Assembly: GCA_005223125.1 (NCBI GenBank) | Contig: NJBH01000003.1 | Location: forward strand, 1-64,000 | DNA length: 64,000 nucleotides | From: Promethearchaeota archaeon Loki_b32 | GTDB taxonomy: Archaea; Asgardarchaeota; Lokiarchaeia; Sigyniarchaeales; SOKP01 | Direction of reading: 5' to 3' | Shown: piece after piece, positions 21,650-62,955 of the stretch | Layout of the letters: every line of letters begins with the position of its first letter | Position numbering within the stretch: position 1 is the first letter of the stretch | The notes under the pieces: generated by a model | What the model saw: the letters and a program-made list of their open reading frames with translations, nothing else | Told to the model about the DNA's origin: nothing | Database searches by the model: none | Program-made: the position numbers and the translations under genes

Positions 21650-21653
21650 AAAG

Positions 21654-24814: not shown

Positions 24815-24817
24815 AGA

Positions 24818-25990
24818 ATGCCAAAACATAATGTAGCGGTAGTAGGGATTGGTCAAACTAAGTTCAGGAGTAAAAGAAGAGATGTGAATATACCTGAAAT
24901 GATCTATGAAGCAGTTAAGATGGCCCTTGATGATGCTCAAATGGAACCGAAAGATGTTGATGCCATTCTTATCGGCAATATGGATCATTTTGAAGGGATT
25001 AATTTCTCTGAGATGTGGTGTGGAATTGATGCTGCACCAGGATATCTAAAACCAGTTGTTAAAATTGCAACTGGAGGGACAACAGGGTCATCTTTAGGGA
25101 TATGTGGATATTATAATGTCGCTTCTGGGATATACAAAAACATTTTAGTTGTGGGATGGGAGAAATTAAATGAAGGAGGAGCCACAACAGGAATAATCAC
25201 AGCATTTGATCCTGTATGGGAACGCCCCTCATTGGCAGGAGCTCTAGGACCACTCGCTCTAATGGCAAATATTTATGCTGCTCGATATGGAATAACCTCT
25301 GAACAAGCAGCAAAAGTAACTGTTAAAAATAGAAGCAATGCTGCCAATAATCCATTTGCCCATATACAAATGCCTGATATTACTTTAGAAGATGTAATGA
25401 ATTCTCAAATGATATCTTATCCCTTAAGATTACATGATTGTTGTCCACAGAGCGAAGGAGCTTGTGCCGTTATCTATGCTAATGAGGAAGAAACAAAGAA
25501 AATAACAGATAATCCTGCATGGTTTAAAGGTGTGTCAACAGCTCATTACTACACATTTGGTTGTGACGATTTAATGTTTGATTTGCCCACTGCCGCCATT
25601 GCGTCCAAGAAAATATATAAGAAACTAGGTATAAAAGACCCTGTAAAGGATCTTGATGTTGCGGAGATATATGAACCTACATCATGGTCAGAACTTAGTT
25701 GGACTGAAAGCTTAGGTTTTTGCGGTAAAGGAGAAGGAGGTAAGTTATTGGATGAAGGTATAACTCAAATGACGGGAGAGTTACCCGTTAATCCCTCTGG
25801 TGGAGTATTAAGCACTAATCCTATTGGAGCAACAGCATTAGTGCGATTCGCTGAAGCTGCTATCCAGGTTATGGGTAGAGGAGGAAAACGACAAATTCCT
25901 GATGTCGAAACAGCAATGGGAATGGGATTTGGTGGATCTCTTTGGACTGAATTAGCAATATTAGGTAAAGATCCAAAACCGTTGAGGTGA
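24818..25990 (+). CDS. Thiolase-fold protein, type B subunit
   Basis: 390 aa; 'VVKIATGGTTGSSLGICGYYNVASG', 'NPSGGVLSTNPIGATA'. Confidence 0.9.
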   Translation: MPKHNVAVVGIGQTKFRSKRRDVNIPEMIYEAVKMALDDAQMEPKDVDAILIGNMDHFEGINFSEMWCGIDAAPGYLKPVVKIATGGTTGSSLGICGYYNVASGIYKNILVVGWEKLNEGGATTGIITAFDPVWERPSLAGALGPLALMANIYAARYGITSEQAAKVTVKNRSNAANNPFAHIQMPDITLEDVMNSQMISYPLRLHDCCPQSEGACAVIYANEEETKKITDNPAWFKGVSTAHYYTFGCDDLMFDLPTAAIASKKIYKKLGIKDPVKDLDVAEIYEPTSWSELSWTESLGFCGKGEGGKLLDEGITQMTGELPVNPSGGVLSTNPIGATALVRFAEAAIQVMGRGGKRQIPDVETAMGMGFGGSLWTELAILGKDPKPLR

Positions 25991-26475
25991 TAAAAATGGG
26001 AAAAAAAGAAAAGGAATTTCAGATTAAATGGAAAACAGACTTACCTTATAGGTATTCTATAGGAAAATTGGCAGTAAAATATTTTGAAGAACTTAAAAAT
26101 AAGAAGATTATGGGTTCAAAATGCCCTAAATGTGATAAAAGATATATGCCTCCGAGAGCCGTATGTGCGAATTGTTTTATTGAAATGACTGTGGAAGATA
26201 TGATAGAATTTTCTCCTAAAGGTACTTTAGTAGGATTTACAGTTGTTAATTATCCCTTTATTGATCCAAATACAGGAGGTATGCGTCCATTCCCTTATGG
26301 TTATGGAATATTCAAATTAGATGGAGCAGACACGTATATGATGCACTTTGTTGATGAAACTGATCATACTAAATTTAAAATCGGACAAAGAGTTGAAGCA
26401 GTGTTCAAAGAAAAAACTGAAGGTGATATTTATGATATTCCATACTTCAGGCTTATTAAGGAGGAGGAAGAATAA
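25987..26475 (+). CDS. DUF35 Zn-ribbon/OB-fold protein
   Basis: 162 aa; 'CPKCDKRYMPPRAVCANC'; 4-bp overlap with upstream thiolase. Confidence 0.92.
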   Translation: MIKMGKKEKEFQIKWKTDLPYRYSIGKLAVKYFEELKNKKIMGSKCPKCDKRYMPPRAVCANCFIEMTVEDMIEFSPKGTLVGFTVVNYPFIDPNTGGMRPFPYGYGIFKLDGADTYMMHFVDETDHTKFKIGQRVEAVFKEKTEGDIYDIPYFRLIKEEEE

Positions 26476-26939
26476 TGGAGGGAGAAAAAATGAATGAAGA
26501 ATTAGAAAAGAAAGTATTTAGAGGGAGAATTAAAGTTCCTTATAAACATACTGCTGGGGCCTATGTAGAGAAGTTCATAACTGAAATCGGAAAAAATAAC
26601 AAAATTATGGGAGTAAGATGTCCAAAATGTAGTAAAGTGTTTGTACCTCCCAAGATGATCTGTTTTAAATGCTTTGAAAAAATGGAAGAATGGGTTGAAG
26701 TCGGAAATCAAGGAGTAATTAAAGGTTTTACAGTAATTTCTCATTCGACGCCTGTGTTGCCTTTGAAACCTCCATTTGCTTATGGGATAATTACACTCGA
26801 TGGTGCAGACACAGATTTTGTACATATTATAAATGAGAGCGATCCTAAAAAATTAAAAGTAGGAATGCGAGTCGAAGCTGTCTTTAAAGAGAAACCAAGA
26901 AAACGAATATTGGATATTGAATATTTCAAACTAATTTAG
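26475..26939 (+). CDS. DUF35 Zn-ribbon/OB-fold protein
   Basis: 154 aa; 'CPKCSKVFVPPKMICFKC'. Confidence 0.92.
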   Translation: MEGEKMNEELEKKVFRGRIKVPYKHTAGAYVEKFITEIGKNNKIMGVRCPKCSKVFVPPKMICFKCFEKMEEWVEVGNQGVIKGFTVISHSTPVLPLKPPFAYGIITLDGADTDFVHIINESDPKKLKVGMRVEAVFKEKPRKRILDIEYFKLI

Positions 26940-27015: not shown

Positions 27016-29028
27016 TTATATACTATTTGCCACTTTGTAAGCTCTGTGAACCGCTTCTAGGACTGTTTCTGGTTTTCTTGCATCTCCGATTTTTTGAACC
27101 TTAATGTTTCTAAGTTGTTTTATTTCATTAAATAGGTTATCATTTGGTTCTACTCCAGTAGCATAATATACCATATCCACATCATTAATCATTTGTTCTT
27201 TATCTGCGGCATCAAGATAACTTACAAAATTCTCTCCAATTTTTTTAACTCTAACGCTAGTATGAAATTTAACACCTAAAGCATCACATTTATCGAGAAG
27301 TACCCATTTTGTCGTTTTTCCAAGAGCTGTACCTAATTTTGGTAATTGTTCCAATACAGTTACCTTATTTCTCCCACCATGTAACATTTTTAAAGCAATA
27401 TCTGGCTCTAAAGCTTTGTAAAATGTAAGAAAATCAAAGGCTTCAAGACTTAAAGCCCCAAATTTAGCTAAATAAATGGCAAGTTCGATTCCAGTAGCTC
27501 CTCCACCAATTATTACATTATTATTTCCAACTGGAGCATCTCCATTAAAAACATCATTAGCCCAAAAGACATTTTCTCTATCTATACCGGGAATCGGTGG
27601 CGTTATTGGATTTGATCCAGTTGCTAAAAACACTGCATCGGGATTAAATTCTTTAACAGTATTAATTGAAACTTCTTTGTCAAGATGTAAGTGGATTCCA
27701 TATTTTTGAATCCAATATAAATAATTATCAATCATTCTTTTGAATTCATTTCTTCCGGGAGGAATCCAGATGATGTTTAATAAGCCTCCAATTTTGTCAT
27801 CCTTTTCAAAAACGTGAACTTCATGACCTCTCATCGCTGCAACTCTCGCAACTTCTAATCCTCCAGGCCCAGAACCAATAATCATTATTTTCTTTTTTTC
27901 TTTAAGAGGTTTTAATTCTGTTTTAGCTTCATTTGCAGCTCTTGCATTTCTTAAACAAGAAATTGGCATCATTTTAAATATTGCATCAAAACATCCTTGA
28001 TTGCAACCAACACAAGTCATAATATCTCTCAATTCACCTTTTTTTGCTTTCATTGGTAAATATGGATCAGCTATCAATGATCTACCCATACAGATAGCAT
28101 CCGCTTTTCTAGCCATTAAAACTTGTTCCGCTAATTCAGGATTATTAATTCTATTGGAGGCAAAAACCGGGATAGACACATTATTTTTAACATTTTCAGC
28201 CAAATAGGTGTAGCATCCTTCTGGAACATCCATAGTTGTCTGGGGGGTTTTAGTTTCATGCCAACCTCCAGTTACATTGAAATAATCTAAATATTTTCCC
28301 AAGTTTTTAGCTATTGCAGCTTTTTCTTTATAAGTATTACTATCTGGAACAAAATCATCACCAGAAATTCGGTATCCTATAGGAAAATCATCTACACTTG
28401 ATCTCATTAATTCAATTGTTTCAATGGGAAATCTTAAGCGATTTTCAAAACTACCTCCATACTCATCAGTTCGGATATTAGTCTTCGGAGATACAAATTG
28501 AGTAAACAGATAACCAGCATTAGCACAAATTTCCACTGCATCAAATCCTGCTTTTTTTGCCCGTACAGTAGCATCAGCAAAAGCTTGTTGTTCTCTTTTA
28601 ATATCTTCAAGAGTCATCTCTCTCGGCGTTGTTTTACTGAAGTTACTGTAAACAGCGGAAGGAGCGATGGGAGTTTTTCCAATTATAAAAGGCATCGTAT
28701 ATGCTCCACCATGGTATAATTGGCAAACAATTTTTACATCATCTCTAGCTTTATGTAGAGCTTCTGTAAACTCTGTTAATTTTGGGACATATTCATCGCT
28801 TTCTATTGAAATCATGGCAGGTAATCCTTTTCCATATACGTCTACATAACAACCCCCCACAATTAACATACCAGCACCCCCCTTTGCCCTTTCACGATAA
28901 AAATTTATTAATTTTTTTGTGATAAAACCATTATTAGCAAGGTTAAGATTCAAAGCAGGCATAACAATACGATTGGAGACCGTCATATTCCTAATTTTAA
29001 AAGGTGTAAACAATTTAAAGAACTTCAA
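27016..29028 (-). CDS. Old yellow enzyme / 2,4-dienoyl-CoA reductase-like FMN-FeS-FAD oxidoreductase
   Basis: 670 aa; '[26 protein letters not shown]' FeS motif, '[24 protein letters not shown]'. Confidence 0.93.
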
Positions 29029-33302: not shown

Positions 33303-33713
33303 TTATAAAAATTCAAATTCGAAGCGCCCAAGACTGTTCACAATTTCTAGTGCTGCTTTAGTATTACGCATTAACTTTGCCATATCACCTTCAAGTCTTA
33401 ATTTACCAGCCATTATAGCTCTTATTGGATCAATTTCTTTTTTCGTAACTGCTACAAAATTATCATAAGGTCCAGCCATGGTGGATTCTGTTTCTATTTC
33501 TTCACCTTCTGGTACCAATCTAGTTCCTGTACATTCTCCATGATGTAATCCTATAAATACTCTAACTTCATGATCTAACTTACCACTAGGTTCGATAACA
33601 AGAAGCATATCCCCTTCCCAAGTAAGTGCTGATGGTTTATAATCTGGATTTTCATTTATAGCTTTGCCAAAAGCTTCAACCCATTCTTCTGATAAAATTT
33701 TCATTCTTATCAC
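33303..33713 (-). CDS. SCP2 sterol-binding domain protein
   Basis: 136 aa; 'AIMAGKLRLEGDMAKLMRN' SCP2 C-terminal signature. Confidence 0.82.
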   Translation of the reverse strand: MIRMKILSEEWVEAFGKAINENPDYKPSALTWEGDMLLVIEPSGKLDHEVRVFIGLHHGECTGTRLVPEGEEIETESTMAGPYDNFVAVTKKEIDPIRAIMAGKLRLEGDMAKLMRNTKAALEIVNSLGRFEFEFL

Positions 33714-41523: not shown

Positions 41524-42666
41524 GTGCAAAAAGTAGGAATTGTAGGATTCTACCAAGTAAAATTACTTTCTGATGCAAATTATGGTCGTTATGAAATGAT
41601 CTTTGAAGCGGTAAGAGGAGCTCTTGATAAAGCAGGATTAAAGAAAAAGGATATAACAACGGTAATTTCATGTACAAATGATTATTATGATGGGAGAACT
41701 ATTTCTAATGCTTTTGCTGTTGAAGCAGGTGGTGCATACTTAGCAGATGAGTCAAAAGTAGAGATGGATGGTGCACACGCATTACTTTATGGGATGATGA
41801 GAATTTTATCTGGGAATCATAAATTAGCAGTGATTTGGGCAGGGAGTATGGCTTCATGTTTTCCATATCATTCAGCTAGATTATTTGAGACTGATCCAAT
41901 ATGGGAAAGACCTAGTGCTTATGTTAATGATATAACAGCAGCTGGGTTTCAGATGAGAGCTTATATGGAGAAATATGGGGTTAGTGTTGAAGAAATGGCC
42001 AAAGTAGTGGTCAAAAATAGAAGAAATGCATCCAAAAATTTATTAGCTTTAGAAGAAGCTCAAAATCCTAATTTAACAGTTAAAGATGTTTTAGACTCTG
42101 AAATTTATGCTGATCCGGTGACTGAACTTATGGTGGCTCAACCTTGTGATGGTATTGCAGCAATACTTTTAGCTCCAGAGAAACAAGCTTTAAAAATTAC
42201 TGATAAACCAGTATGGATTACTGGAGTAGGATATAATCAAGATGCTTATTATCTTGGCGATAAAGATTTATCAGAATCTAAATCAATGAGACTAGCAGCT
42301 AAAATGGCATACGAAGCTGCTGGAATTACAGATCCAATAAAAGAAATTAATGTTGCTGAAATATTTGAAGCATATGCTCATGAAGAATTAATCTTAAAGG
42401 AAGCTCTAGGATTTGCTGAAAAAGGAAAAGGAGCATTTTTGAATTCTGAAATTGATGGAGAGCTTCCAATTAATCCTTCTGGGGGTGCACTCGGAGGTAA
42501 TCCACCTTGTGGAACAGGATTAATTAGAATTATTGAAGCTACGAAACAAATTACAGGTGAAGCAAATGGATATCAAGTAGAAGGTGTTAAAAAAGCTCTA
42601 GCAACAGGGCAGATTGGTATGTGTGCCCAAAATAATATAGTATATATATTGGAGGGGGGGAATTAA
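41524..42666 (+). CDS. Thiolase-fold protein, type A subunit (GTG start)
   Basis: 380 aa; 'QKVGIVGFYQVKLLSDANYGRYEMIFEAVRGALDKAG', 'NPSGGALGGNPPCGTG'. Confidence 0.88.
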   Translation: MQKVGIVGFYQVKLLSDANYGRYEMIFEAVRGALDKAGLKKKDITTVISCTNDYYDGRTISNAFAVEAGGAYLADESKVEMDGAHALLYGMMRILSGNHKLAVIWAGSMASCFPYHSARLFETDPIWERPSAYVNDITAAGFQMRAYMEKYGVSVEEMAKVVVKNRRNASKNLLALEEAQNPNLTVKDVLDSEIYADPVTELMVAQPCDGIAAILLAPEKQALKITDKPVWITGVGYNQDAYYLGDKDLSESKSMRLAAKMAYEAAGITDPIKEINVAEIFEAYAHEELILKEALGFAEKGKGAFLNSEIDGELPINPSGGALGGNPPCGTGLIRIIEATKQITGEANGYQVEGVKKALATGQIGMCAQNNIVYILEGGN

Positions 42667-42667
42667 A

Positions 42668-43915
42668 ATGGGAAGACAAGTTTGTATCGCTAGCGCTGGA
42701 TTCAGCGAACATGCTTCAAAAAGATCTGATGTGAATATGCCAGAATTAGTCAGTGAAGCAATTGAAGATTGTTTAAAAAAAGTTCCAAGTGTCAGTGTAA
42801 ATGACATCGATGCTTTTGTTAATGGGAATATGCCTGCCTTTGAAGGTTCTAATATACCAGAATTATGGATGACTGATTGGATGGGAGCACGAAACAAACC
42901 ATTAATGAGAATTACAACTGGTGGAACAACGGGAGGATCAGTCGCTATTGGTGGATATTATACTGTAACAGCAGAATTACCAGGGATCGACACAGTTTTG
43001 GCAATAGCATTTGAACAACAATCCCAAGGGGACACTAGCACGGGCTTAGCTTCTGTTGCATATGGGGAAATATCAGTTCTAAACACTTTAGGCATTTCTT
43101 ATGAACAATTAACCCAATTATTATCTGCTGGCGCCGCAATTGGAGTTGCTTCTTACCAAGCTACTAATTATATGCGTAGAAGTAAAATTACGGAAGAAGA
43201 CTTAGCTAGAGTTGTTGTACAAAATAGACATAATGCTGCTAATACTTGGTGGGCTCATTTGAAAATGCCCGATCTAACAATCGCAGATGTATTAGAAACA
43301 CCATATATTTCATATCCTTTAAGATATGGTATGGTTTGTCCTGCGTCGGATGGAGCATGCGCCATGTTATTTACTACTGAAGAAAAAGCAAAAGATCTAT
43401 GCGATATACCTGTTTATGTAAATGGAGTAGGTAGTGTAGCTAATGAATCAGGAGTGCTAGGATATAATGGTAGTGGTGCTGGTCAATTAGATACTTCTGA
43501 ACAATTAGGAGCAATGAAATCTGCAGAACTTGCTTTTGGGCAGGCAGGCATTTCATTTCCAAGGAAAGAAATTGACTATGCTGAGGTTTATTCGCCTTTT
43601 CCAAACCAAGAACTAATGTGGATTGAAAGGTTAGGGTTGTTTGAGGAAAATACAGCTTCAGAAATGTATGAAACGGGTGTTACAGCTCTTAATGGAGAGT
43701 TACCAATAAATTGTTCTGGTGGAGTTAATTCAACTAACGCGATTGGAGCTTCAGCCATGGAAAGACCTGCAGTAGCAGCACTTCAGATTATGGGTAAAGC
43801 TAGTAATCAAGTACCAAAAACGGTACACACCGCTATTGGTCATGGATGGGGAGGTATTATAAATTTAATTACGATGATGGTGATGTCAAATAAACCTACA
43901 AGGAAAATTAAGTAA
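42668..43915 (+). CDS. Thiolase-fold protein, type B subunit
   Basis: 415 aa; 'LMRITTGGTTGGSVAIGGYYTV', 'NCSGGVNSTNAIGASA'. Confidence 0.88.
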   Translation: MGRQVCIASAGFSEHASKRSDVNMPELVSEAIEDCLKKVPSVSVNDIDAFVNGNMPAFEGSNIPELWMTDWMGARNKPLMRITTGGTTGGSVAIGGYYTVTAELPGIDTVLAIAFEQQSQGDTSTGLASVAYGEISVLNTLGISYEQLTQLLSAGAAIGVASYQATNYMRRSKITEEDLARVVVQNRHNAANTWWAHLKMPDLTIADVLETPYISYPLRYGMVCPASDGACAMLFTTEEKAKDLCDIPVYVNGVGSVANESGVLGYNGSGAGQLDTSEQLGAMKSAELAFGQAGISFPRKEIDYAEVYSPFPNQELMWIERLGLFEENTASEMYETGVTALNGELPINCSGGVNSTNAIGASAMERPAVAALQIMGKASNQVPKTVHTAIGHGWGGIINLITMMVMSNKPTRKIK

Positions 43916-43932
43916 ATGGAGGTATTAAAAAA

Positions 43933-44463
43933 ATGTCGAAAAGAACTCAAAGAAAATCAATGGGTTATATTAAAAAAGATTATATAAGAACTCGAACAAT
44001 GCCAGGCAGCTGGTATCTTTCCAGTTATAGGTTTAAATTCAATATAACTCACTTTAAACCTTTTCAGGACAAATTAAAAGAGAGAAAATTAGTAGGTTTA
44101 CAGTGTTCGAGCTGTAATCGAGTTTTCTTTCCACCTAGACTTATCTGTGGTAAATGTTTTGTAAAACCAGATCGATGGGTGGATTTACGTGAAACAGGGA
44201 GAGTTGCTACATTTACTATAACATACTTGAAGGATCTGGAAACTGGAGAAGTATCAGAAAGACCCGTTGTATTAGTTCAACAAGATGGATCTGATACTAC
44301 ATATACTGCTCAATTAAGCCCTGATGTGGATTATAAGGATACATATATAGGAATGCCAGTTAAGGTCCACTGGGCCGAAGAACCTACAGGGGGCTTAATG
44401 GATATTCAATTTTATGATTTAGTTGAAGATAATTCAAAAGATTTAGAATTACGTAAAGATTAA
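43933..44463 (+). CDS. DUF35 Zn-ribbon/OB-fold protein
   Basis: 176 aa; 'CSSCNRVFFPPRLICGKC'. Confidence 0.92.
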   Translation: MSKRTQRKSMGYIKKDYIRTRTMPGSWYLSSYRFKFNITHFKPFQDKLKERKLVGLQCSSCNRVFFPPRLICGKCFVKPDRWVDLRETGRVATFTITYLKDLETGEVSERPVVLVQQDGSDTTYTAQLSPDVDYKDTYIGMPVKVHWAEEPTGGLMDIQFYDLVEDNSKDLELRKD

Positions 44464-44518: not shown

Positions 44519-45583
44519 TCAAGCACTTAGATAATTAGTTAATACATTGCTAATTTTTTCAATAGAATACTGTATATCATCTTCAAATATTCCATAATGA
44601 GTTACAAATCTAATTTTTTCTTTACTGATATTGAAAGCTAAAATCCCATCTTTTCCAAGCGTATTTACTATTTTAAATATACGTACATTTTTCTTAAGTT
44701 CAACAATTACAATATTTGTTTCTGGTTTATGTACATTTATAGGTAAATCATAAGATTCAATTCCTTCAGCAAGTAGTTTTGCGTTTTTATGATCTTCTTC
44801 GAGTCGGTCAATCCATTTTTGCTCAAGCGCTATTAATCCAAAAGATGCAATTATTCCAGCTTGACGCATGCCTCCACCAAGCATTTTTCGATATCTCCTA
44901 GCATTTGTGATAAATTCTTTTGATCCAGCAACAATTGATCCAACTGGACAAGATAATCCTTTAGATAGACAAAACATGACACTATCAATATGTCTGGTGA
45001 ATTCTGTAATCGGAACTTTAAGGCTTACTGCTGCATTAAATATTCTTGCTCCATCTAAATGTAATTTTAAATCATTCTTGTCTGAAAACTCCTTCATATC
45101 TTTAATTACTTCCGGTCGAATAATTACTCCTCCGTGATAATTGTGAGTATTTTCTACAGAAAAGAGAGTTGTAGGTGGTTCATGTATATCCTCTCTATCA
45201 CGAATTAGTTTTTGGAGTTGATCAAATGAAGGAACACCTTTATTCGAAGGATAAGTCCTAATCATTAATCCTCCAATACGAGCAGCACTACCTACCTCAT
45301 TTTTGTATATATGACTTAATTCTTCTAATAGAATCTCATCACCAGGATTAGTTTGTGAGAGTAATGAAACTAAATTTCCTTGTGTCCCAGAAGTAACAAA
45401 TAATGCTGCTTCTTTACCAATAACTTCAGCTGCTCTTTTTTCCAGTTTATTTACGGTGGGATCTTCTCCTTCAACATCATCTCCAATTTTGGAATCATCA
45501 AGTGATCTGAGCATCTCCCACATTTCTTCAGATGGCTTGGTAACAGTATCAGAACGAAAATCTACAATTTTCAATTTAATCAA
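44519..45583 (-). CDS. ltaE: Low-specificity threonine aldolase (intact copy A)
   Basis: 354 aa; 'DFRSDTVTKPSEEMWEML', 'LFVTSGTQGNLVSLL', 'LHLDGARIFNAAVS'. Confidence 0.94.
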   Translation of the reverse strand: MIKLKIVDFRSDTVTKPSEEMWEMLRSLDDSKIGDDVEGEDPTVNKLEKRAAEVIGKEAALFVTSGTQGNLVSLLSQTNPGDEILLEELSHIYKNEVGSAARIGGLMIRTYPSNKGVPSFDQLQKLIRDREDIHEPPTTLFSVENTHNYHGGVIIRPEVIKDMKEFSDKNDLKLHLDGARIFNAAVSLKVPITEFTRHIDSVMFCLSKGLSCPVGSIVAGSKEFITNARRYRKMLGGGMRQAGIIASFGLIALEQKWIDRLEEDHKNAKLLAEGIESYDLPINVHKPETNIVIVELKKNVRIFKIVNTLGKDGILAFNISKEKIRFVTHYGIFEDDIQYSIEKISNVLTNYLSA

Positions 45584-45845: not shown

Positions 45846-46595
45846 TTACAAACCTGGAATTCCTGTTCGTTTGTGAACGATATCTAATCCTTTGGAAATA
45901 ATCGCAATTGTGACTAGAAAGATAATAGCGACAAGGATGTAGGTAGTTAGCGATATAGCCGTAACTGACACGATAGATTTCGCCTGAGCAAATAGTTCGG
46001 TGGCTCCAACTAAAGAAACAACGACAGTATATTTAGGAAGGTATGCTGCTTCATTAGACCACGAAGGAATGACACGGCGTAGTGTTTGTGGTAATACAAC
46101 ATGGCGAATACCAGCTAGACGAGACATGCCCAATGATTGGGCAGCCATTAACTGCCCAGTCCCTACCGACATAAAAGATCCACAGAAGTATTCAGCTTGA
46201 TAGGCTGCACTATTTAGACCTAGTGTGATTAGGGCGACTAAAGTTCGGTGATTTAGGAGGATGATAGTGATATCCTTATCTAGTATTTTGAAGCTAGTAT
46301 CTAATCCCTAGCTTCCCACTGGGATATTTAGGCTAACGTGAAGAAAATAAATGAATAATAATTACGCGAGCAAAGGTGTACCACGCATAAACTCAATATA
46401 CACGATAGCAATTCGTGAGAGAATCCAACCACCATACTGACGGAGAGTAGCTAGGATAAGACCAAGAAAAAAGCCCATCATAAGCGCCCATGCATACAAC
46501 CACATCGTCAATAAAAAACCTGAGAAGATATGATCACAGTATTCTAGGACAGTAAGAAGTTCGGCTATGGGATTAGTAGTACCTTGAAATATCAT
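45846..46595 (-). pseudogene. Polar amino-acid ABC transporter permease, degraded copy with two in-frame stops
   Basis: Frame is 750 bp, same length as intact 54893-55642; TAA at 46362-46364 and TAG at 46308-46310 interrupt it. Confidence 0.85.
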
Positions 46596-47323
46596 TTACT
46601 TTCCTCCTCATATGATTGCTTTAAAAGCTCTTCATGGCTTCCATATAATATCTGAAGCTGTTTGAGAAATTTTTTTACTCGATCAGACTTAGGCGAGGTG
46701 AAGAAATGTTTAGGAGTTCCCTGTTCTAAGATAACTCCATCACCGAGAAAAATCATTTCTGATGCAACAGCTCTCGCGAAACCCATTTCGTGAGTGACAA
46801 CTATCATTGTAGTACCTGCTTTAGCAATATCCAACATCACTTGGAGTACTTCGCCAATCAGTTCAGGATCTAAAGCAGAAGTAGGCTCGTCAAACAAGAT
46901 TACATCTGGCTCCATGGCCAAAGCACGTGCAATACCTACACGTTGTTGTTGTCCACCAGATAGTTCTGCAGGATAGTGATCAGCCCATTGCTCCATTTTA
47001 ACTTGTTGCAATGCCTCTAGTGCCTTTGCGCGAGCTTCTTCCTTTAAAAGACCTTTCACCCGGCGAAGCCCTATACTAACATTATCTATCGCTTTGAGAT
47101 GAGAAAATAGATTAAAAGTTTGGAATACCATGCCGATCCTTGCTCGTATCGTATTAAGATTTATTCCAGATGCCATAAAATTCTGTCCACGAAGATATAC
47201 TTCACCCTTATCTGGTGGGCTTAGCATATTGATGCAACGAAGTAGTGTACTTTTACCAGAACCACTTGGCCCAAATATTACCTTGACTTCTCGCTCTGCT
47301 ACTTCGAGTGAAACACCCTTAAT
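46592..47323 (-). pseudogene. Polar amino-acid ABC transporter ATPase, N-terminally truncated copy
   Basis: Homology to 55639-56430 (Walker A 'GPSGSGKST', 'LSGGQQQR', '[14 protein letters not shown]') continues upstream of the ORF-track ATG to '[17 protein letters not shown]', then stops; about 20 N-terminal codons missing. Confidence 0.8.
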
Positions 47324-49329: not shown

Positions 49330-50403
49330 TTAATTAATAAAATTGCGCACTTCACCTCCAAGCTGTAATTGCATGCGATTTACTATGTGATCGAGCCCCT
49401 GTCGATTCAAACTTGCTTTAAAAGGCGCTTTCACGCGTTTATTGAGCCATTCCATGTTTGCACGACAGGCTTTTCCTAATTCGGGATATTCGAGAAAAAC
49501 TTTAGCAAACGCTATTATTTCAGATTTATATTTTTTGAGCGTTGTTATAGCAGTGTTTAATTTATCGGAGTAATTCTTTTTTTGAGTTAAGGCGTCTATT
49601 TGCCGACCATCTATAACCTTATAGGGTTCTCGATAAATTTCTCCTATCATTAACGTCATTTCGCGATATTCCCGGAGAATCGGATGTTGCTTTAAGAATT
49701 CTTCTATAATCGCTTCTACTTTAGGAGACACCTTTTCGGGCTGTTTAAAAAGAAGAAATTGCTTTTTACTGAATTCTCGTGCCTCTTCTTTCAGCGGTTT
49801 TCTAAAACTAACACAGAGTGTCTTCAATTTTTTCAAGAGCTCTCCTTGGACACGATTGCGTCCTTTAATGGTAAACTTCCGTTTTGGGAATTTAGAGCGC
49901 AAAACATCGCAAAACTCCTTTACTCTTTCGCCGTGTTCTTTTAAAAGCTTTTTAAGCTCCACGTCAAAAACGATAAAAAAAGAGTGAGGATCCCATAGGG
50001 TTAAAAGAAAAAGTAGCTTCTTTATGACATCGCTACATGTTTTTGCTCCGGAATGGGAAGGGGTAATACTTTTTAAAGGAGGAATGCTTTCAAGGGTAAG
50101 GAGATCTGCGTGCTTACGCATCTCTTGGAGTCCATTAAGATAAGAACGAAGCTCTAAAAATTCATTTATTTCATTACGATAATGTTTAGCCCTGTAATAC
50201 TTGAAATCTCGTCTTATCCCGTTATTGAGTTCTCGCATGACGTGAAAGCCGTCAATTTGAACGGTAGATTCAGGAAAAATCGCCTTGATTGATGCGATTA
50301 ATGCGGGACTAAAATCGCACGTGATAATATAAGGGTTAATGGGTGCTTTTTTTCTTACGGCGAGTAAAGAACGGCAGCCATTCTCGAAATCTTCTACTCC
50401 CAC
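49330..50403 (-). CDS. DDE transposase, C-terminal part (second frame)
   Basis: 'ITCDFSPALIASIKAIFPESTVQIDGFHVMRELNNGIRRDFKYYR'; overlaps upstream ORF in -1 frame. Confidence 0.8.
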   Translation of the reverse strand: MGVEDFENGCRSLLAVRKKAPINPYIITCDFSPALIASIKAIFPESTVQIDGFHVMRELNNGIRRDFKYYRAKHYRNEINEFLELRSYLNGLQEMRKHADLLTLESIPPLKSITPSHSGAKTCSDVIKKLLFLLTLWDPHSFFIVFDVELKKLLKEHGERVKEFCDVLRSKFPKRKFTIKGRNRVQGELLKKLKTLCVSFRKPLKEEAREFSKKQFLLFKQPEKVSPKVEAIIEEFLKQHPILREYREMTLMIGEIYREPYKVIDGRQIDALTQKKNYSDKLNTAITTLKKYKSEIIAFAKVFLEYPELGKACRANMEWLNKRVKAPFKASLNRQGLDHIVNRMQLQLGGEVRNFIN

Positions 50404-51108: not shown

Positions 51109-52144
51109 TCATTCACTTAGAAACTTGTTTAATACATTACTAATTTTTTCAATAGAATATTGTATATCATCTTTATTTATTCCGTAATGAGTTACAAATC
51201 TGATTTTTTCTTTACTGATATTGAAAGCTAAAATCCCCTCTTTTCCAAGGGTATTTACTATTTTAAATATGCGTGTCTTTTTCTTAAGTTCAACAATTAC
51301 AATATTAGTTTCTGGTTTATGTACATTTATAGGTAAATCACTAGTTTCAATTCCTTCAGCAAGTAGCTTTACATTTTCATGATCTTCCTCAAGTCTGTTA
51401 ATCCATTTTTGTTCAAGTGCAATTAAACCAAAAGAAGCAATTATTCCAGCTTGACGCATACCTCCACCAAGCATTTTTCGATATCTCCTAGCATTCGTGA
51501 TAAATTCCTTGGATCCCGCAACAATTGAACCCACTGGACAAGAAAGTCCTTTAGATAGACAAAACATTACGCTATCAACATATTTAGTGAACTCTGTAAC
51601 AGGGATTTTTAGGCTTACTGCTGCATTAAATATCCTCGCTCCATCTAAATGTAATTTTAAATCATTCTTTTCTGAAAATCCCTTCATCTCCTTAATTATT
51701 TCTGGTTGGATAATCACTCCTCCATGATAATTATGAGTGTTTTCTACAGAAAAGAGAGTAGTTGGTGGCTCATGTATATCTTCTTTATCACAAATTAATT
51801 TTTGAAGTTGATCAAATGAAGGAACACCTTTATTCGAGGGATAAGTTCTAATCATTAATCCGCCAATACGTGCAGCACTACCTACCTCATTTTTGTAAAT
51901 ATGACTTAATTCTTCTAAGAGAATCTGCTTTTTCTTCTAACTCATTAACAGTAGGATCTTCTCCTTCAACATCATCTCCAATTTTTGAGTCATCCAAAGA
52001 CCTTAGCATTTCCCACATTTCAGGAGATGGTTTGGTTACGGTATCAGAACGAAATTCAACTACTCTCGAATTAATCAAGACTTCATCAATAAAAGTTAAA
52101 ATTCTATAATGTTTCATTAAAATAAAAGAGTGTATTAAAAGCAA
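51109..52144 (-). pseudogene. Threonine aldolase copy B, inactivated by about 95-bp out-of-frame internal deletion
   Basis: N-terminal piece 51887-52144 'RSDTVTKPSPEMWEML...TVNELEEKAD|SLRRIKSYLQK*' and C-terminal piece 51109-51855 nearly identical to copy A; the segment with 'SGTQGN' is missing. Confidence 0.9.
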
Positions 52145-53078: not shown

Positions 53079-54841
53079 TCAAACAACACTCACCCGACAA
53101 AAATAAATAGGCTCCTTGAGCTTAATAGAAAGGTTTATCTTCGTTAAATCCTTATTTTATTTAATGCCAACAAAACCTTCTGAAATTAAAAAAGCTACAA
53201 TCCATACTTATTGGAAATCTAAAGAAGGATTGATTTGCCCCTTATGTTCTTCTCAATTACAACATGAATTTAATAATGGAGGCAGGAAGATTATTACTTT
53301 AAAGGGACCTGTATGGGTAATGACTAATTATTATAGCTGCATTAATCCTAAGTGTGAAATGCACGAGGCATTTCCAGTAGCATATCATTCTGCCATGCAA
53401 CGGAAGCGATTTTCCTTGGAAGTATGGGAAAAAGTGATACAACATCATTTCAAGCATCATCTTAATTATTCCACTATCGTTGAACTCATGTGGGACGATT
53501 GGGACGTGTCAATTTCGAGGAACACGGTGAGAAACATCTGCGAATTTTTTGAAATGGCAGGAAAGCAATACACGGACAAAAAAGTCCTAAAAGAGGTAGA
53601 ATCAAGCGGGAAAATTGTTTTATCGCTTGATGGTGCCCAACCAGTTAAGAGCGAGCCTTCTCTTTGGGTCTTTTCTGATCGCCTCACGGGAAACGTGCTC
53701 CTTGCAAGGAACTTAGAATCTGCTCCCGCATTCGCGTTATGTGCTATATTTCGAGAAATTGAAATGCTCTATGGCGTTCCCATCGTAGCCATCATTTCCG
53801 ACAAGCAAAAAAACATTGTGAATAGTGTCAAGCAATTCAAACCAGATATCCCACAGGTGTATTGCCAGTACCACTTCCTTAACCACGTTGCCGAGCCCAT
53901 TGCTTCGAAAGATTCGCATCTCAAGAAAATTCTTCGGAAATCTGTAAAACAACTCTCAATTGTCTATAATAGTAAATATACCGATTCAAACAAGTTATAC
54001 AAGTTGTTTCATCCCATTAGCGAGGAGCTGAAATGTGCCATCTCCACGCGTGGTGTTCGATTTGACGTGTTTCCGGGAATCGAAGCATATGCGAATTTAG
54101 AGTATGTTGTATCACGATTGGAACAATTCGGGGAAATAGAGTTCGCTCCGAAAGTTTTTCGCACACTGAACGCTCTTCTTGCAGCATTAAAGAATTTACT
54201 TAGAGAGAATCGTCATTTACGAGAGGAGATAACCTCCTTGATACCTGATTTTCAGCAGATTCGTAAGATTTTGGCCAAAAGGGAGAAAAAATCTTCTCAA
54301 ATCGAGAAAGAAGTGAAAAAATGGATGTACAAACTCCAGAGCCGCTTGAAAAGGAGAAAATTGGAGTCTAATCCTCAGAACATCAAGTGGCAACAACCTT
54401 CTTTCAAGTTAAGTTGCGAGGAAATATGGCAACAATGGATTAGGTTAGTAAATTCTTATAGTGAAGGATTATACAAGGCTTATGATGTCGAGGAATTAGA
54501 GTTTACCAATAACGCCAAAGAACAGCTGTTTCACCGCAGTAAGCACCATTTTAAAGCCCTATTGGGCCGTGAAAACGTTGCAAGAGCGTTTCTGAACCAC
54601 GGAGGACTGCATGTCCAGTTATTAGATATCGATTTTACGAAAAAAAAAGTTACAAGCGTGCTGTTAGCGTGCGAAACCCCACTTATTGAAGCCCACAGGA
54701 AAGAATTTAACGCACAATACGCAACAATAAGAAGAACGTGGAGAATTAGAGAAAAAGACACAGGAAACTTTACCCAATTCAAAATTAATTTGACTCAACT
54801 AGAGATGTCCTAATCTATTTTGTCGAGTGAGTGGGGTTTGA
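53079..54841 (+). mobile_element. Insertion sequence (about 1.76 kb) with imperfect terminal inverted repeats
   Basis: Left tcaaacaacactcacccgacaaaa; right-end reverse complement tcaaaccccactcactcgacaaaa; encloses one transposase ORF. Confidence 0.85.
53164..54813 (+). CDS. DDE/MULE-like transposase
   Basis: 'CPLCSSQLQHEFNN', 'KIVLSLDGAQPVKSEPSLWVFSD', 'AIISDKQKNIVNSVKQFKPDIPQVYCQYHFLNHV'. Confidence 0.85.
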   Translation: MPTKPSEIKKATIHTYWKSKEGLICPLCSSQLQHEFNNGGRKIITLKGPVWVMTNYYSCINPKCEMHEAFPVAYHSAMQRKRFSLEVWEKVIQHHFKHHLNYSTIVELMWDDWDVSISRNTVRNICEFFEMAGKQYTDKKVLKEVESSGKIVLSLDGAQPVKSEPSLWVFSDRLTGNVLLARNLESAPAFALCAIFREIEMLYGVPIVAIISDKQKNIVNSVKQFKPDIPQVYCQYHFLNHVAEPIASKDSHLKKILRKSVKQLSIVYNSKYTDSNKLYKLFHPISEELKCAISTRGVRFDVFPGIEAYANLEYVVSRLEQFGEIEFAPKVFRTLNALLAALKNLLRENRHLREEITSLIPDFQQIRKILAKREKKSSQIEKEVKKWMYKLQSRLKRRKLESNPQNIKWQQPSFKLSCEEIWQQWIRLVNSYSEGLYKAYDVEELEFTNNAKEQLFHRSKHHFKALLGRENVARAFLNHGGLHVQLLDIDFTKKKVTSVLLACETPLIEAHRKEFNAQYATIRRTWRIREKDTGNFTQFKINLTQLEMS

Positions 54842-54892: not shown

Positions 54893-55642
54893 TTACAAAC
54901 CCGGAATTGCTGTTCGTTTATGGATGACATCTAGTACTTTGGAAACAGTTGAGATCAAGACTAGAAAGATGATAGCGATAATAATGAATGTAGCCTCCGG
55001 GATAAACTCCTTAAAAACGAGATAGTGAGCCTTGCCAAAAAGTTCTGGTACTCCAATATACCAGACAACTATAGTATATTTCGGAAGATAAGCGGCTTCG
55101 TTGGACCATGCAGGAATAACACGGCGTAAAGCCTGTGGCAACACGATATGGACTATACCCACCCGACGAGACATACCCAGCGATTGGGCAGCTACTAGTT
55201 GCTCAGTACCAACAGATGTAATAGCACCACGGAGGTATTCAGCTTGATAAGCCGCACTATTAAGACCTAAAGCGAGGATACCTACTAAAATTTCTGGATT
55301 TAATAAGATGAAAGTCATCTCCCTATCACTGATTCTAAAGTTAGTGTAGAAGGCCCACCTTTCAATGGGGATATTCAAGCTATAAGGGAGAAAGTATAGG
55401 AGTAATATCTGTGCTAGTAAAGGTGTACCCCGCACAATTTCGATGTACCCAGTAGCAATCCGTGAAATAATTGCCCCCCCATATTGGCGAAGAATGGCGA
55501 GGAAAAGGCCAAGAAAAAAGCCTATCATTAGTGCCCATACATATAACCAAATCATCATTATAAAACCTTCTAGGATTTCATCCCAGTATTCTAGTACGGC
55601 AAGTAAGTCCTGAATTTCCTGAGGGAGAGCTTGGAACATCAT
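54893..55642 (-). CDS. Polar amino-acid ABC transporter permease
   Basis: 249 aa; '[21 protein letters not shown]', '[29 protein letters not shown]'. Confidence 0.93.
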
Positions 55643-56430
55643 TTGTCTTCTTCCTCTTTTGACAACTTCAGAAGTCCTTTATGGCTTCCGTATAAAATAT
55701 CAAGTTGTTTAAGAAAAGTCTTCACACGATCAGATTTTGGTGAGGCGAAGAAGTGTTGTGGAGTTCCACGTTCTATTATGACGCCATTACCGAGGAAGAG
55801 CATTTCTGATGCAACAGCTCCAGCGAATCCCATCTCGTGAGTTACTACTATCATTGTAGTACCAGTTTTAGCAAGCTCTAACATTACTTGAAGTACTTCT
55901 CCGATCAGTTCAGGATCCAAGGCAGAGGTAGGTTCGTCAAACAAGATAACATCAGGCTCCATTACCAATGCACGTGCAATACCTATACGCTGTTGTTGAC
56001 CACCGGATAGTTGTGCAGGATAATGATCAGCCCATTCCGCCATCTTTACTTGATTTAAAGCCTTTAATGCCTTCGAACGAGCTTCTTCCTTTGATACACC
56101 TTTTACTCGGCGAAGACCGATACTAACGTTATTTATTGCTCTGAGATGCGCAAAAAGATTAAAATGTTGGAATACCATACCGATATTTGCTCGCATTATG
56201 TTAAGATTGATTCCAGGCTCCATTAGATTCTGTTCCGAGAGATAGACCTCACCTTGGTCTGGTGGGTCCAGCATATTGATGCAACGAAGCAATGTGCTCT
56301 TACCAGAGCCACTTGGTCCGAAAATAACCTTCACCTCTTGTTCCATTAACTCAAATGAGACCCCCTTAAGAACCTCCAATTCTCCATACGATTTCCACAC
56401 ATCAACTATGCGTAGCACGGGTTTACCCAT
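55639..56430 (-). CDS. Polar amino-acid ABC transporter ATP-binding protein
   Basis: 263 aa; Walker A 'GPSGSGKST', signature '[15 protein letters not shown]', Walker B '[14 protein letters not shown]'. Confidence 0.96.
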
Positions 56431-56432
56431 CT

Positions 56433-57161
56433 TTATCCACCTCCCATTCCCAACTCTTTAAGTTTCTTGGTTTGCCGTTCGCCAAATAATCTTGTTATAG
56501 GATAGGTGAGTAGAAAATATAGAATCGCCACAACGCCTATAGATACAGCCCACAACTCGACAAAATTTGATGATATCTGTAAAGCTGCGTTTGTCATCTC
56601 GACTATTCCAACCGTGAGGGCAAAAGATGAATCCTTGATGACTACCGCATATTCATTAGACCAGCTAGGAACAGCTAGCCGTAAGGCTTGAGGCAATAGA
56701 ATAGTTCGTAAAGCTTGGAAACGGCTCATCCCCAATGCACGAGCAGCTTCCTCCTGTCCTGGATTCACGGATAGAAGAGCGCCGCGAAAAATCTGAGATT
56801 GATAAGCTCCACTGCGAAGGGCAAGCGCCAAAAATACACCGAAAAGTGGTCTATATTGTGGCTCTATGCCAAAACATGTATCACCAATGCAAATCTCATA
56901 CAAATTAGTTAGATAAATAGCAAAGACGAATATCAGAACCAGAATTGGGATTCCACGAAAAAGTTTTTCATAGCCACTCGCTAACCAATTAAGTTCTTTG
57001 CCACCATAAACGCGCATAATTGCCAGTGATAAACCTATCACAAACCCACCTAATAGGCCTAGAACTGTGAGTATTAACGTTCTAGGCAATCCTTTCACAA
57101 AAATATAAAAACCAATTTCAGCAAGATTAGGAGGTTTCGGAATGCTGTTCACCCAAACCAT
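56433..57161 (-). CDS. Polar amino-acid ABC transporter permease (second)
   Basis: 242 aa; '[20 protein letters not shown]', '[29 protein letters not shown]'. Confidence 0.94.
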
Positions 57162-57949
57162 TTTTCGATGAGTAAATCCATTGATCCATCTCCAAATGCA
57201 TTAAGGATGACTTTATTGATTTCTTTCATCAGTTCGGGTTCTTCCCAACGGCACCAAAGTGCTGTAGGCTCAGCTGGTACTGTGAATATAGACTTAAATG
57301 CGTACGTTTTCGCATAGACGGTAAAAACTGGTTCATCTACAAACGCAGCATCAATAGTTCCAAGATCTAATGCGGCCATAAGCACGTCAGCTTTAGGGTA
57401 TACTAAAAGATTTACGCCTTCAGTCATGCCGAGATCTTTTAAGGTATCATGCTGTGTGGTACCCGATTGAACACCAACGGTGTAAGCTGTAATTTCCGTT
57501 AAACTAGTGATATTAATCGTTGAGACACTCTGGACGATGACAACCTCATTTACACGAATATAAGGCACGGAATGCGCGAGTTGTTCTGCACGAGTTGATG
57601 TAACCATCATTGCAGCCGCAATCATATCGATACTACCTGCTTTACAAGCACCAATCAGGAGATCAAAATCCATATCTGTCATTATAAGGGCAACACCGAG
57701 GTGCACAGCTATCATGGCTGACAGATCGATGTCAAAACCTTGCCACTCATCCGCAGTAACATTAAATATCTCAAAAGGGGGCCATGGTTCATCAGTTCCC
57801 ACCATAATATAGCCTTGATCCTGAATCTCCTCGAGTAATGTTTTCCTTTCTGTTGGTTCTGCGGTAAAAAGTGGAGGTATAAACCATCCCGCCAAGAATC
57901 CTCCCGCTAAGCAAACTATCATCCCTACTACTGCAATTTCTCTTTTCAT
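57149..57949 (-). CDS. Amino-acid ABC transporter substrate-binding protein, membrane anchored
   Basis: 266 aa; N-terminal hydrophobic anchor, 'GYIMVGTDEPWPPFEIFNVTADEWQGFDIDL'. Confidence 0.94.
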   Translation of the reverse strand: MKREIAVVGMIVCLAGGFLAGWFIPPLFTAEPTERKTLLEEIQDQGYIMVGTDEPWPPFEIFNVTADEWQGFDIDLSAMIAVHLGVALIMTDMDFDLLIGACKAGSIDMIAAAMMVTSTRAEQLAHSVPYIRVNEVVIVQSVSTINITSLTEITAYTVGVQSGTTQHDTLKDLGMTEGVNLLVYPKADVLMAALDLGTIDAAFVDEPVFTVYAKTYAFKSIFTVPAEPTALWCRWEEPELMKEINKVILNAFGDGSMDLLIEKWFG

Positions 57950-59975: not shown

Positions 59976-60347
59976 TTATTTAGTTTTTAATACGATTGTA
60001 ATTGCTCTCGTTAGGCGGATAACATCCATAACTTTACCTTTTTCCACAGTTATCTGCTCTCGCGAAATCACATGGGTAAAATCTCCTTTTCCATCACATA
60101 CTTTAACGAGTGCATCAGAATCCCCAGACATTACGATGAATGCATCAGATTTAGTACCTTCAGATAAGAGAGCTTTACGATTCTTGATTTCTAAGAAGAA
60201 GGGGTCATCTTTATCTAGATTAAACTGAAAGGACATCTCCCAATCAACATCTTTTCCTGCAATATTCGTAACAAATACCGCTTGAGCTTTTGGAATTGTG
60301 TTTAATTTCTCCACGATTTTACTTAAATTTTCTTTTGCTTGTCCCAT
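59976..60347 (-). CDS. SCP2 sterol-carrier-like domain protein
   Basis: 123 aa; 'AFIVMSGDSDALVKVCDGKGDFTHVISREQITVEKGKVMDVIRL'. Confidence 0.72.
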   Translation of the reverse strand: MGQAKENLSKIVEKLNTIPKAQAVFVTNIAGKDVDWEMSFQFNLDKDDPFFLEIKNRKALLSEGTKSDAFIVMSGDSDALVKVCDGKGDFTHVISREQITVEKGKVMDVIRLTRAITIVLKTK

Positions 60348-60844
60348 TATGATTCTCCTCCTTCATATTCTGACTTTGATATCCAATTTTCATACTCATC
60401 TTCGGGAACAAAGAAAAAATCAGTCATTTTACCCACCCTATCCTTGTTAAAGACCGCCCTAACTTTTTTTCCCTTTTTTATTTTTGAAGGTACTAAATTC
60501 TCAGAAAAAATCCCTTGAAGTAATGCGGTTTCAGCACCATCAAGTTTTATAAACCCTATTCCATAAGGTATCGCTTTGATAAAGGCTGAAGTGGTATACC
60601 ACACTATTGTGCTAACCTCTATTGTTCCAGTTTGTTTGAGTTCCACCCAATTTGCTGGTGTATAGCAATCAGAGCAGTTAATTCTAGGAGGCATCCATAT
60701 CTTTCCACATTTAGTACATTTCGTACCTAATAACTTCTTGTTATTCATTAACTCTATAAAAAACTTTGATTGACCTCCCATTGTGTATTTATACGAAATA
60801 GCAATTTTATCTCGTATTTCATGAGATAGAAATTCTTCACTCAT
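60347..60844 (-). CDS. DUF35 Zn-ribbon/OB-fold protein
   Basis: 165 aa; 'CTKCGKIWMPPRINCSDC'; overlaps both neighbours. Confidence 0.93.
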   Translation of the reverse strand: MSEEFLSHEIRDKIAISYKYTMGGQSKFFIELMNNKKLLGTKCTKCGKIWMPPRINCSDCYTPANWVELKQTGTIEVSTIVWYTTSAFIKAIPYGIGFIKLDGAETALLQGIFSENLVPSKIKKGKKVRAVFNKDRVGKMTDFFFVPEDEYENWISKSEYEGGES

Positions 60845-62097
60845 GTTTGTTTCAACCCCTCCTCATTTGCCATTACAATAACTGCGGCATATGCTGCTCC
60901 CGGTCCTCCTATAGAATGCGAAATAGCTCGCCCCTTTTCAATTGTTACTTGATGTTTTCCTGCTTCTCCTCTTAATTGAAGAGCAGCCTCTCCCGTACTC
61001 ATTATCCCAGTTGCACCAACAGCATGTCCACAACCTATTAACCCCCCAGAAGGACAGCAGGGTAATTCCCCTTCAATCCAGGGTCCCTCTCCTGATTTTT
61101 CAAAAGTTTTTTCAATCCAAGAACCACCCTCTCCAAAAGGAACAAACCCAAGCTCCTCATAGGAAATAACTTCCTGTCCTGAGAATGCATCGTGTAATTC
61201 TGCTAAATCTATTAGGCTTTTTATTCTATTATAATCTAGTCCTGCCATTTTATAGGCAGCTTTTGCTGCATATATATTTGAATAAAGTCTTCCCATATCT
61301 TCTCTGTTTCCTATAAAACAATCAGTATTTGCTGCTGCTACCCCAGTAATCCAAACTGGCTTTTCAATCTTTAATTCTCTTACTTTTTCTTCACTTGCTA
61401 GAATCAACGCCGCAGACGCTTCTGAATATAAACAACAATCCAACATTTTGAATGGATAGCAGATTATTCTTGAATTCATGACATCCTCAACGGTTATTTT
61501 CATTGGAGATTGTGCTTTTGGATTATTCATAGCATTTCCATGATTTTTAACACTAACGTAAGCCATTTGTTCCTCCGTTGGATTTCCAAATTCTTCATAA
61601 TGCGCATTTACCATCGACACATAAGAACTCGCTGCCATCATGCCCATAGGGTATTCATATGTCATATCCGCGGAATATGCTATTGCATTTAAAACTTCAG
61701 GTGTAGTAACTCCAGTTTGTTCATCGTAACAGTCATTACATTTTTCAAGACCTATGCATAAACATAAATCTGACAATCCTGAAGCAACTTCTGCATATGC
61801 CATCCTTACTGTGTATCCTCCTGTAGCACCCCCTGTTGCAATACGCGTTCCAGGTTTGTTATTCATCCCAAGATAACTATTTGTAAAAATATCTGGCATA
61901 AATTGCCGTTCAAACAATTCGTTATAGATTCCATAAACGGTTGATTGAATGTTTTTATGAGATATATCAGCTCCATTTTTATTAGCATCTTCTAAGGCAA
62001 GTTTAGTTGCATCATAAGCAAGCTCAAAATAAGTTTTATCTAAATACCTTGCCTTAAAAGGAGTAATTCCAATTCCTATTATTGCTACTTTTTGCAT
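60841..62097 (-). CDS. Thiolase-fold protein (SCP2-thiolase-like), Cys-less
   Basis: 418 aa; 'GTRIATGGATGGYTVRMAYAEVASG', 'CPSGGLIGCGHAVGATG'. Confidence 0.92.
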   Translation of the reverse strand: MQKVAIIGIGITPFKARYLDKTYFELAYDATKLALEDANKNGADISHKNIQSTVYGIYNELFERQFMPDIFTNSYLGMNNKPGTRIATGGATGGYTVRMAYAEVASGLSDLCLCIGLEKCNDCYDEQTGVTTPEVLNAIAYSADMTYEYPMGMMAASSYVSMVNAHYEEFGNPTEEQMAYVSVKNHGNAMNNPKAQSPMKITVEDVMNSRIICYPFKMLDCCLYSEASAALILASEEKVRELKIEKPVWITGVAAANTDCFIGNREDMGRLYSNIYAAKAAYKMAGLDYNRIKSLIDLAELHDAFSGQEVISYEELGFVPFGEGGSWIEKTFEKSGEGPWIEGELPCCPSGGLIGCGHAVGATGIMSTGEAALQLRGEAGKHQVTIEKGRAISHSIGGPGAAYAAVIVMANEEGLKQT

Positions 62098-62268: not shown

Positions 62269-62955
62269 TTGCTTAATCGTATAGATCTCAATGGATTCAA
62301 AAAAGTTCAAAAGGAGTATAAAAAAGACCGCTCCAAATGTAAAAAAACATTAGAGGTTAAAGGAAGATGGAGATTAGATGTTGAATATGGTCCACAATTT
62401 GAGACTAAACTAAAAACAGAAAGAGCCGGGGAAATTACGGTACAAACTGATGAAACGATTATCCTTGGAGGAGGAGGAACTGCAGTACATCCTGTTCATT
62501 ATTGCATGGCAGGTTTTTGTGGATGTTTCTCTGCAGCTTTTGCTAAATGGGCTGCAATGGCAGGAATTGAGTTAAGAAAACTTGATATTAGAATAGTTGC
62601 AGATATTGACTTAACCACAGGATTTGGGATTGAGGATGGTATTGATGCCGTGGACAACTATAAACTTGAAATATTTGTTGAGAGTGACGCACCTATAGAA
62701 AAATTAAATGAGGTTCTAGAGGCTACTAAAAAAAGGTGTTTTTGCATGTATTGTATTACGACACCAATAGTTCCTAATATAGATATGATTGTAGAAATTC
62801 CAAAGGAAAAGATGGAAGAAGCTCTTTTTATTTGTCCTACATGCTTCAATAAAACATTGGTCTTTTTAGATGATAATACACAAAAGTGCAAGAATTGTGG
62901 TACTACTGGCTACTTTACTAAACAGCCCGAACCAGAAAAAGTATCTCAAAAATAA
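62269..62955 (+). CDS. OsmC-like protein with C-terminal zinc ribbon (TTG start)
   Basis: 228 aa; 'GGGGTAVHPVHYCMAGFCGCFSAAFAKWAAMAGIELRKLDIRI' then 'CPTCFNKTLVFLDDNTQKCKNCG'. Confidence 0.78.
   Translation: MLNRIDLNGFKKVQKEYKKDRSKCKKTLEVKGRWRLDVEYGPQFETKLKTERAGEITVQTDETIILGGGGTAVHPVHYCMAGFCGCFSAAFAKWAAMAGIELRKLDIRIVADIDLTTGFGIEDGIDAVDNYKLEIFVESDAPIEKLNEVLEATKKRCFCMYCITTPIVPNIDMIVEIPKEKMEEALFICPTCFNKTLVFLDDNTQKCKNCGTTGYFTKQPEPEKVSQK

Follow-up and report, generated by a model that had tools for sequence, protein, structure and literature searches.

The window, by which we mean the whole 64,000-nucleotide stretch of DNA analysed here, contains on its minus strand three genes in close succession:

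60841..62097, minus strand: thiolase-fold protein of the SCP2-thiolase-like type, 418 aa, with Gly90 in place of the nucleophile Cys, gene without introns
60347..60844, minus strand: DUF35/ChsH2-type protein, 165 aa, zinc ribbon and OB fold, the expected partner of the thiolase-fold protein
59976..60347, minus strand: SCP2-fold protein, 123 aa

A check of the open reading frames agreed with the preliminary description of this trio in both coordinates and overlaps, with the thiolase-like and DUF35 genes sharing 4 nt (ATGA) and the DUF35 and SCP2 genes 1 nt (TAATG). The close packing reported there is also seen in relatives, where 31 of 61 scored thiolase/DUF35 junctions overlap by exactly 4 nt and the DUF35/SCP2 junctions mostly fall at +1 to +3 or -4 nt, the 1-nt overlap of the window being one variant of this tight packing. 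Moreover, its expectation that synteny would be kept elsewhere was borne out in a survey of relatives, which found about 48 loci of Lokiarchaeia and Helarchaeia with the order thiolase-DUF35-SCP2, tightly packed; since the same gene order recurs this often, the trio is not a chance arrangement. The nearest orthologs are 91-95% identical and come without exception from Lokiarchaeota/Lokiarchaeia records, which places the window in a Lokiarchaeia genome. Bacterial relatives (about 52% identical) and a second Helarchaeia copy have the thiolase and DUF35 genes with no SCP2 gene adjoining, and the SCP2 gene, whose product the preliminary description took for a putative lipid-delivery subunit, is therefore a lineage-specific addition. 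Frequent neighbours of the trio are an amino-acid ABC transporter, a threonine-aldolase-type beta-eliminating lyase (Beta_elim_lyase family; in relatives often downstream of the trio), a nitronate-monooxygenase-type protein, an AMP-binding ligase and, assigned by sequence likeness, an enoyl-CoA hydratase. In the window an amino-acid ABC transporter lies at 54893-57949 (minus strand), and in about 13 relatives a transporter of this type comes immediately after the trio on its downstream side; an OsmC-domain protein with an extra C-terminal zinc-ribbon-like segment is encoded divergently from the trio at 62269-62955 (plus strand) and recurs nearby in relatives.

The thiolase-like protein matches Pfam Thiolase_C_1 (4e-24) in addition to Thiolase_N, and the DUF35 protein matches zf-ChsH2 and OB_ChsH2_C, with all Cys residues of a C-x2-C-x10-C-x2-C zinc ribbon present in its sequence. 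The third protein had been put forward as SCP2-like and does have this fold: an AlphaFold2 model of the family (29 orthologs) reached a pLDDT of 94.2, SCP2 structures ranked first when the model was compared with the PDB by Foldseek (3cnu/3bn8, 1wfr, 2cx7, 2ksh), and human SCP2 matched it with a TM of 0.71. The Pfam match of 59976..60347 to SCP2 (PF02036) scored 20.9 bits, slightly below the 21.3 cut-off, and a PDB sequence search with a single SCP2-like sequence as query gave no match, unlike the family profile and the fold, which recovered the relationship. A further SCP2 protein (37 bits) is encoded in the window at 33303-33713 (minus strand), flanked by the genes of an iron alcohol dehydrogenase and a flavin/2Fe-2S reductase, and the window's genome has about nine SCP2-type genes.

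Alignment to solved thiolases places TGGATGG (Gly90) of the thiolase-fold protein at the nucleophile motif ACASG, and this glycine lies within TGGATGG or SGGATGG in every relative checked, bacterial ones included. Every relative checked also misses the C-terminal catalytic Cys (CxG) and has HDAF for the SCP2-thiolase motif HDCF. With both Cys residues gone and HDCF changed in this way, ordinary 3-ketoacyl-CoA thiolysis is not expected. His302, Asp303, Cys356 and His358 are nevertheless retained in nearly all relatives (the alignment of orthologs keeps Cys356-Gly-His358), which together with a very low dN/dS suggests an active site. The fold model matched the archaeal thiolase 6esq, zebrafish SCP2-thiolase, the thiolase-like ST0096, benzoylsuccinyl-CoA thiolase, Ltp2 and Sal; 6esq, 6ok1, 7pxp and 9myr are among its PDB fold matches, in keeping with the earlier proposal that the thiolase and DUF35 proteins are a pair of the complex-forming type.

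The steroid side-chain aldolases Ltp2-ChsH2(DUF35) and Sal-Shy(DUF35) resemble the trio in joining a thiolase fold to a DUF35 partner, and in Sal, as in the window protein, Gly replaces the nucleophilic Cys (PMC12329534); in the DUF35-linked thiolase-fold aldolase CtSal this Gly is reported to preclude thiolysis (PMC12329534). The trio differs from both, however, in having a separate small DUF35 gene, an SCP2 gene after it, and HDAF in place of YDHF/YDCY, with His302 at the position of the Ltp2/Sal catalytic Tyr; because this Tyr is absent, the protein is neither a plain Ltp2 nor a plain Sal member. The closest solved fold, the archaeal thiolase/HMG-CoA synthase/DUF35 complex (6esq), likewise has its thiolase and DUF35 as separate proteins, but its thiolase retains the catalytic Cys that the window protein lacks, and the trio has SCP2 instead of an HMG-CoA synthase gene. 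More likely than an ordinary thiolase is a DUF35-capped CoA-ester C-C lyase similar to Ltp2 and Sal. We tentatively suggest that the thiolase-fold protein (spliced where its gene is interrupted, see below) and DUF35 could together be such a lyase, most likely one that cleaves by a retro-aldol reaction, and that the hydrophobic acyl part could be bound by SCP2.

In the preliminary description the trio had been read as a 'split SCPx', that is, an active 3-ketoacyl-CoA thiolase supplied by a separate SCP2 lipid carrier. The fold content of that proposal stands, as thiolase and SCP2 folds are associated here as they are in eukaryotic SCPx, the operon is conserved and zebrafish SCP2-thiolase is among the best fold matches; its chemistry does not, given that the nucleophilic and second Cys are absent and HDAF replaces HDCF in all relatives, and we regard a true split SCPx as improbable. 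Somewhat less doubtful, though still unlikely in our view, is that the thiolase-fold protein serves as a non-catalytic scaffold or acyl-CoA-binding subunit, with DUF35 and SCP2 acting in binding only. The nucleophile is lost, and the window encodes several more thiolase-fold proteins that lack the Cys; both would fit such a role, but the conserved His302, Asp303, Cys356 and His358 and the low dN/dS speak against it. Unlike SCPx, the trio has separate genes with DUF35 between them, and it defines a thiolase-fold protein that is linked to DUF35, lacks the nucleophile and is partnered by SCP2. More thiolase-fold genes, mostly tandem pairs with DUF35 genes, occur on the plus strand of the window at 20228-22256, 23669-26939 and 41524-44463; none of the five thiolase-fold proteins of the window that were aligned has the nucleophilic Cys, the whole set being Cys-less.

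In the window the thiolase-like gene is intronless, and among the orthologs fetched its reading frame is broken in 12 from Lokiarchaeia. Aligning their DNA to intact genes revealed 25 insertions of 29-34 nt in these 12 loci, at five sites that are empty in the window and were placed on its gene by codon mapping:

61716..61720, minus strand: empty site 1, following codon 126 or 127; 29-30 nt in L093, L095, L103 and L104
61653..61657, minus strand: empty site 2, following codon 147 or 148; 31-34 nt in L097, L104, L107, L116 and L117
61640..61641, minus strand: empty site 3, after the first base of codon 153; 30-31 nt in L097, L103 and L117
61558..61559, minus strand: empty site 4, within codon 180 after its second base; 29-30 nt in L063, L095, L103, L104, L107 and L116
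61175..61181, minus strand: empty site 5, codons 306-308; 29-30 nt in L063, L073, L094, L096, L103, L107 and L116

The insertions often are not multiples of three and mostly carry in-frame stops, and the exons on either side of them are highly similar in protein. Interrupted genes have one to four insertions each (four in L103, three each in L104, L107 and L116), and genome G017, of the window's GTDB genus, has three that are the same as those of L116. Identical or near-identical insertions recur in metagenome-assembled genomes (MAGs) from separate records. The insertion at site 5 interrupts the conserved stretch HDAFSGQEV, adjoining the HDAF active-site motif, and for L103 the predicted exon-exon join at this site is CTTCTCTGGAC|AAGAAGTC.

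For each insertion we listed the pairs of cuts that restore the conserved protein and then asked for the archaeal bulge-helix-bulge (BHB) geometry, in which the 3' part of the intron pairs with exon 1 over 4 bp and this helix is flanked by 3-nt bulges cut after their second base (2|1). A perfect 4-bp helix with 3-nt bulges at frame-restoring cuts was found in 21 of the 25 thiolase introns, with 3 of 4 pairs in the remaining four. As some thiolase introns occur in two collections, the statistics were taken on distinct sequences only: with three introns from other genes included (see below), the exact helix is present in 23 of 27, the other four again having 3 of 4 pairs, compared with 4.9 of 27 expected when intron interiors were shuffled. 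The 2|2 geometry gave the top score among 49 tried, and cells diagonally next to it were also raised, tied cuts sliding along short repeats. In several cases (e.g. the Sir2 and acyl-CoA ligase introns and L104 site 1) the minimum-energy fold displays the motif directly. An outer exon-exon helix is seen at L104 site 1 in the minimum-energy fold and, by inspection, at site 5 (CTTCT/AGAAG), but a strong one is absent from most introns, and many have the relaxed HBh' form. Removing the insertions by the BHB rule restores the conserved reading frame in the thiolase loci and in the three other genes, and the spliced frames are intact in all 12 thiolase loci (11 over the full length, one over the fragment available).

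No full-length protein would be possible unless the inserts are removed. According to the mechanism we propose, each intron would fold with the end of exon 1 into a 4-bp helix with two 3-nt bulges and an intron hairpin, the tRNA-splicing endonuclease EndA would cut the pre-mRNA at both bulges, and the RtcB ligase would then join the exons. Most genomes have two EndA-type genes and RtcB was present in all five tested; the intron-carrying genome G030, to which L095 belongs, has only one EndA-type gene, the second perhaps missing from a 92% complete assembly. Heterotetrameric EndA enzymes are built from two gene types and have relaxed specificity (PMC2738675, PMC12397907). Considering these data, the trio of the window is very probably an intron-free version of an operon conserved in Lokiarchaeia/Helarchaeia whose first gene, in at least 12 related loci, carries BHB introns predicted to be spliced by EndA and RtcB.

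In-frame stops, frameshifts and the fact that every record is a MAG could also be signs of pseudogenes or faulty assembly in the interrupted orthologs. We consider this very unlikely, as genomes assembled independently share the same 29-30 nt insert at an identical base position and the inserts follow a structural rule, and as the low dN/dS of the spliced exons (0.019-0.072, i.e. purifying selection), combined with open spliced frames in 12 of 12 loci, argues that the genes are not pseudogenes. The Lokiarchaeia inserts resemble mitochondrial bypassing elements (byps), which are likewise short, form hairpins and bring stops into conserved coding sequence, so that a ribosome hopping over the inserts might be imagined. 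The matching take-off and landing codons that this requires are possible in only 3 of 28 introns, however, whereas the BHB helix fits 23 of 27; we have rejected translational bypassing for this reason and hold it to be hardly tenable beside BHB splicing.

As a predictive check of the rule, insertions of the same type were found in three other genes of G030, encoding an old-yellow-enzyme-type reductase (the ortholog of window 27016-29028), an acyl-CoA ligase and a Sir2-type protein. These BHB-type introns, at about 165,880 and 862,890 of contig C6 and about 775,880 of contig C9, are all 30 nt long, and each shows a 4-bp helix where the rule predicts one. For the reductase no other cut gives as good a protein match as the BHB cut; for the acyl-CoA ligase the BHB cut ranks second. 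A genome-wide blind scan for BHB motifs in G030 returned 80 clusters against 73 in decoys, and this small excess indicates that such introns are not abundant; homology-based detection, which took over from the blind scan, covered 1.2 Mb of the genome. Four intron-bearing genes over roughly 410 testable 600-nt segments suggests introns in about 1% of G030 genes, a frequency consistent with the lack of excess in the blind scan. The same homology search found no such introns in the testable parts of the window's genome and of three other relatives.

Sites 1 to 5 have 4, 5, 3, 6 and 7 carriers and require 3, 5, 3, 6 and 5 changes on the gene tree, respectively, and at sites 1, 2 and 5 the intron positions are shifted by a few bases between lineages. 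This patchy distribution, together with the small shifts, suggests that introns were repeatedly gained at hot spots, repeatedly lost, or exchanged. A preference of the introns for the most conserved motifs was also considered and was unsupported (P 0.69).

To our knowledge, the confirmed introns in archaeal protein genes are only single BHB introns, e.g. that of crenarchaeal cbf5. BHB-type pre-mRNA introns of archaeal protein genes were described from cbf5 of Crenarchaeota (Watanabe 2002; Yokobori 2009, PMC2738675), and the cbf5 intron is similar to those found here in being short, of the BHB type, cut after the second bulge base, often relaxed and patchily gained and lost. However, cbf5 is an RNA-modification gene with one intron, whereas in Lokiarchaeia a metabolic gene has five intron sites, of which as many as four are occupied in a single copy, and three more genes carry introns; moreover, splicing of cbf5 was proven by cDNA, and the Lokiarchaeia introns are known here from DNA sequence. 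BHB introns of tRNAs are abundant in other Asgard archaea (Atabeyarchaeia and Freyarchaeia; PMC11291895) and share the predicted structure, with EndA and RtcB expected to act on both, but they interrupt tRNA and the thiolase introns mRNA. ARAGORN, run with the bacterial code on these archaeal stretches, returned almost no tRNAs.

In the open-access PMC literature we found no report of mRNA introns in Asgard archaea, nor of an archaeal protein gene with several introns; earlier publication or preprints elsewhere are possible for the former. We think it rather likely that Lokiarchaea express some of their protein genes via regular EndA/RtcB splicing, with several introns per gene that are gained and lost at recurrent positions. 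If so, close relatives of eukaryotes would have a spliceosome-independent, multi-intron mRNA system, and mRNA interruption and splicing by protein enzymes would be at work in the lineage nearest to eukaryotes, with automated annotation fragmenting the intron-bearing genes or labelling them pseudogenes. The analysis predicts 27 exon-exon junctions, exact to the base, and should RNA data confirm splicing, the thiolase gene would be the most intron-rich archaeal protein gene known to us.

The Beta_elim_lyase (threonine-aldolase) copy of the window at 51109-52144 (minus strand) was considered as an intron-split gene and rejected, since about 57 profile positions are missing (45-101 deleted, plus a frameshift), making it a deletion pseudogene; an intact paralog lies at 44519-45583. 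Near the transporter region, 49330-50403 (minus strand) is what remains of an ISL3-type transposase, and 53116-54813 (plus strand) holds a large transposase-like ORF with no Pfam match. At 46592-47227 (minus strand) an ABC-transporter ATPase is without its N-terminal part, with about 1 kb free of ORFs alongside and, at about 46310 (minus strand), an in-frame stop relative to a related genome, and this region is likely a decaying transporter copy.
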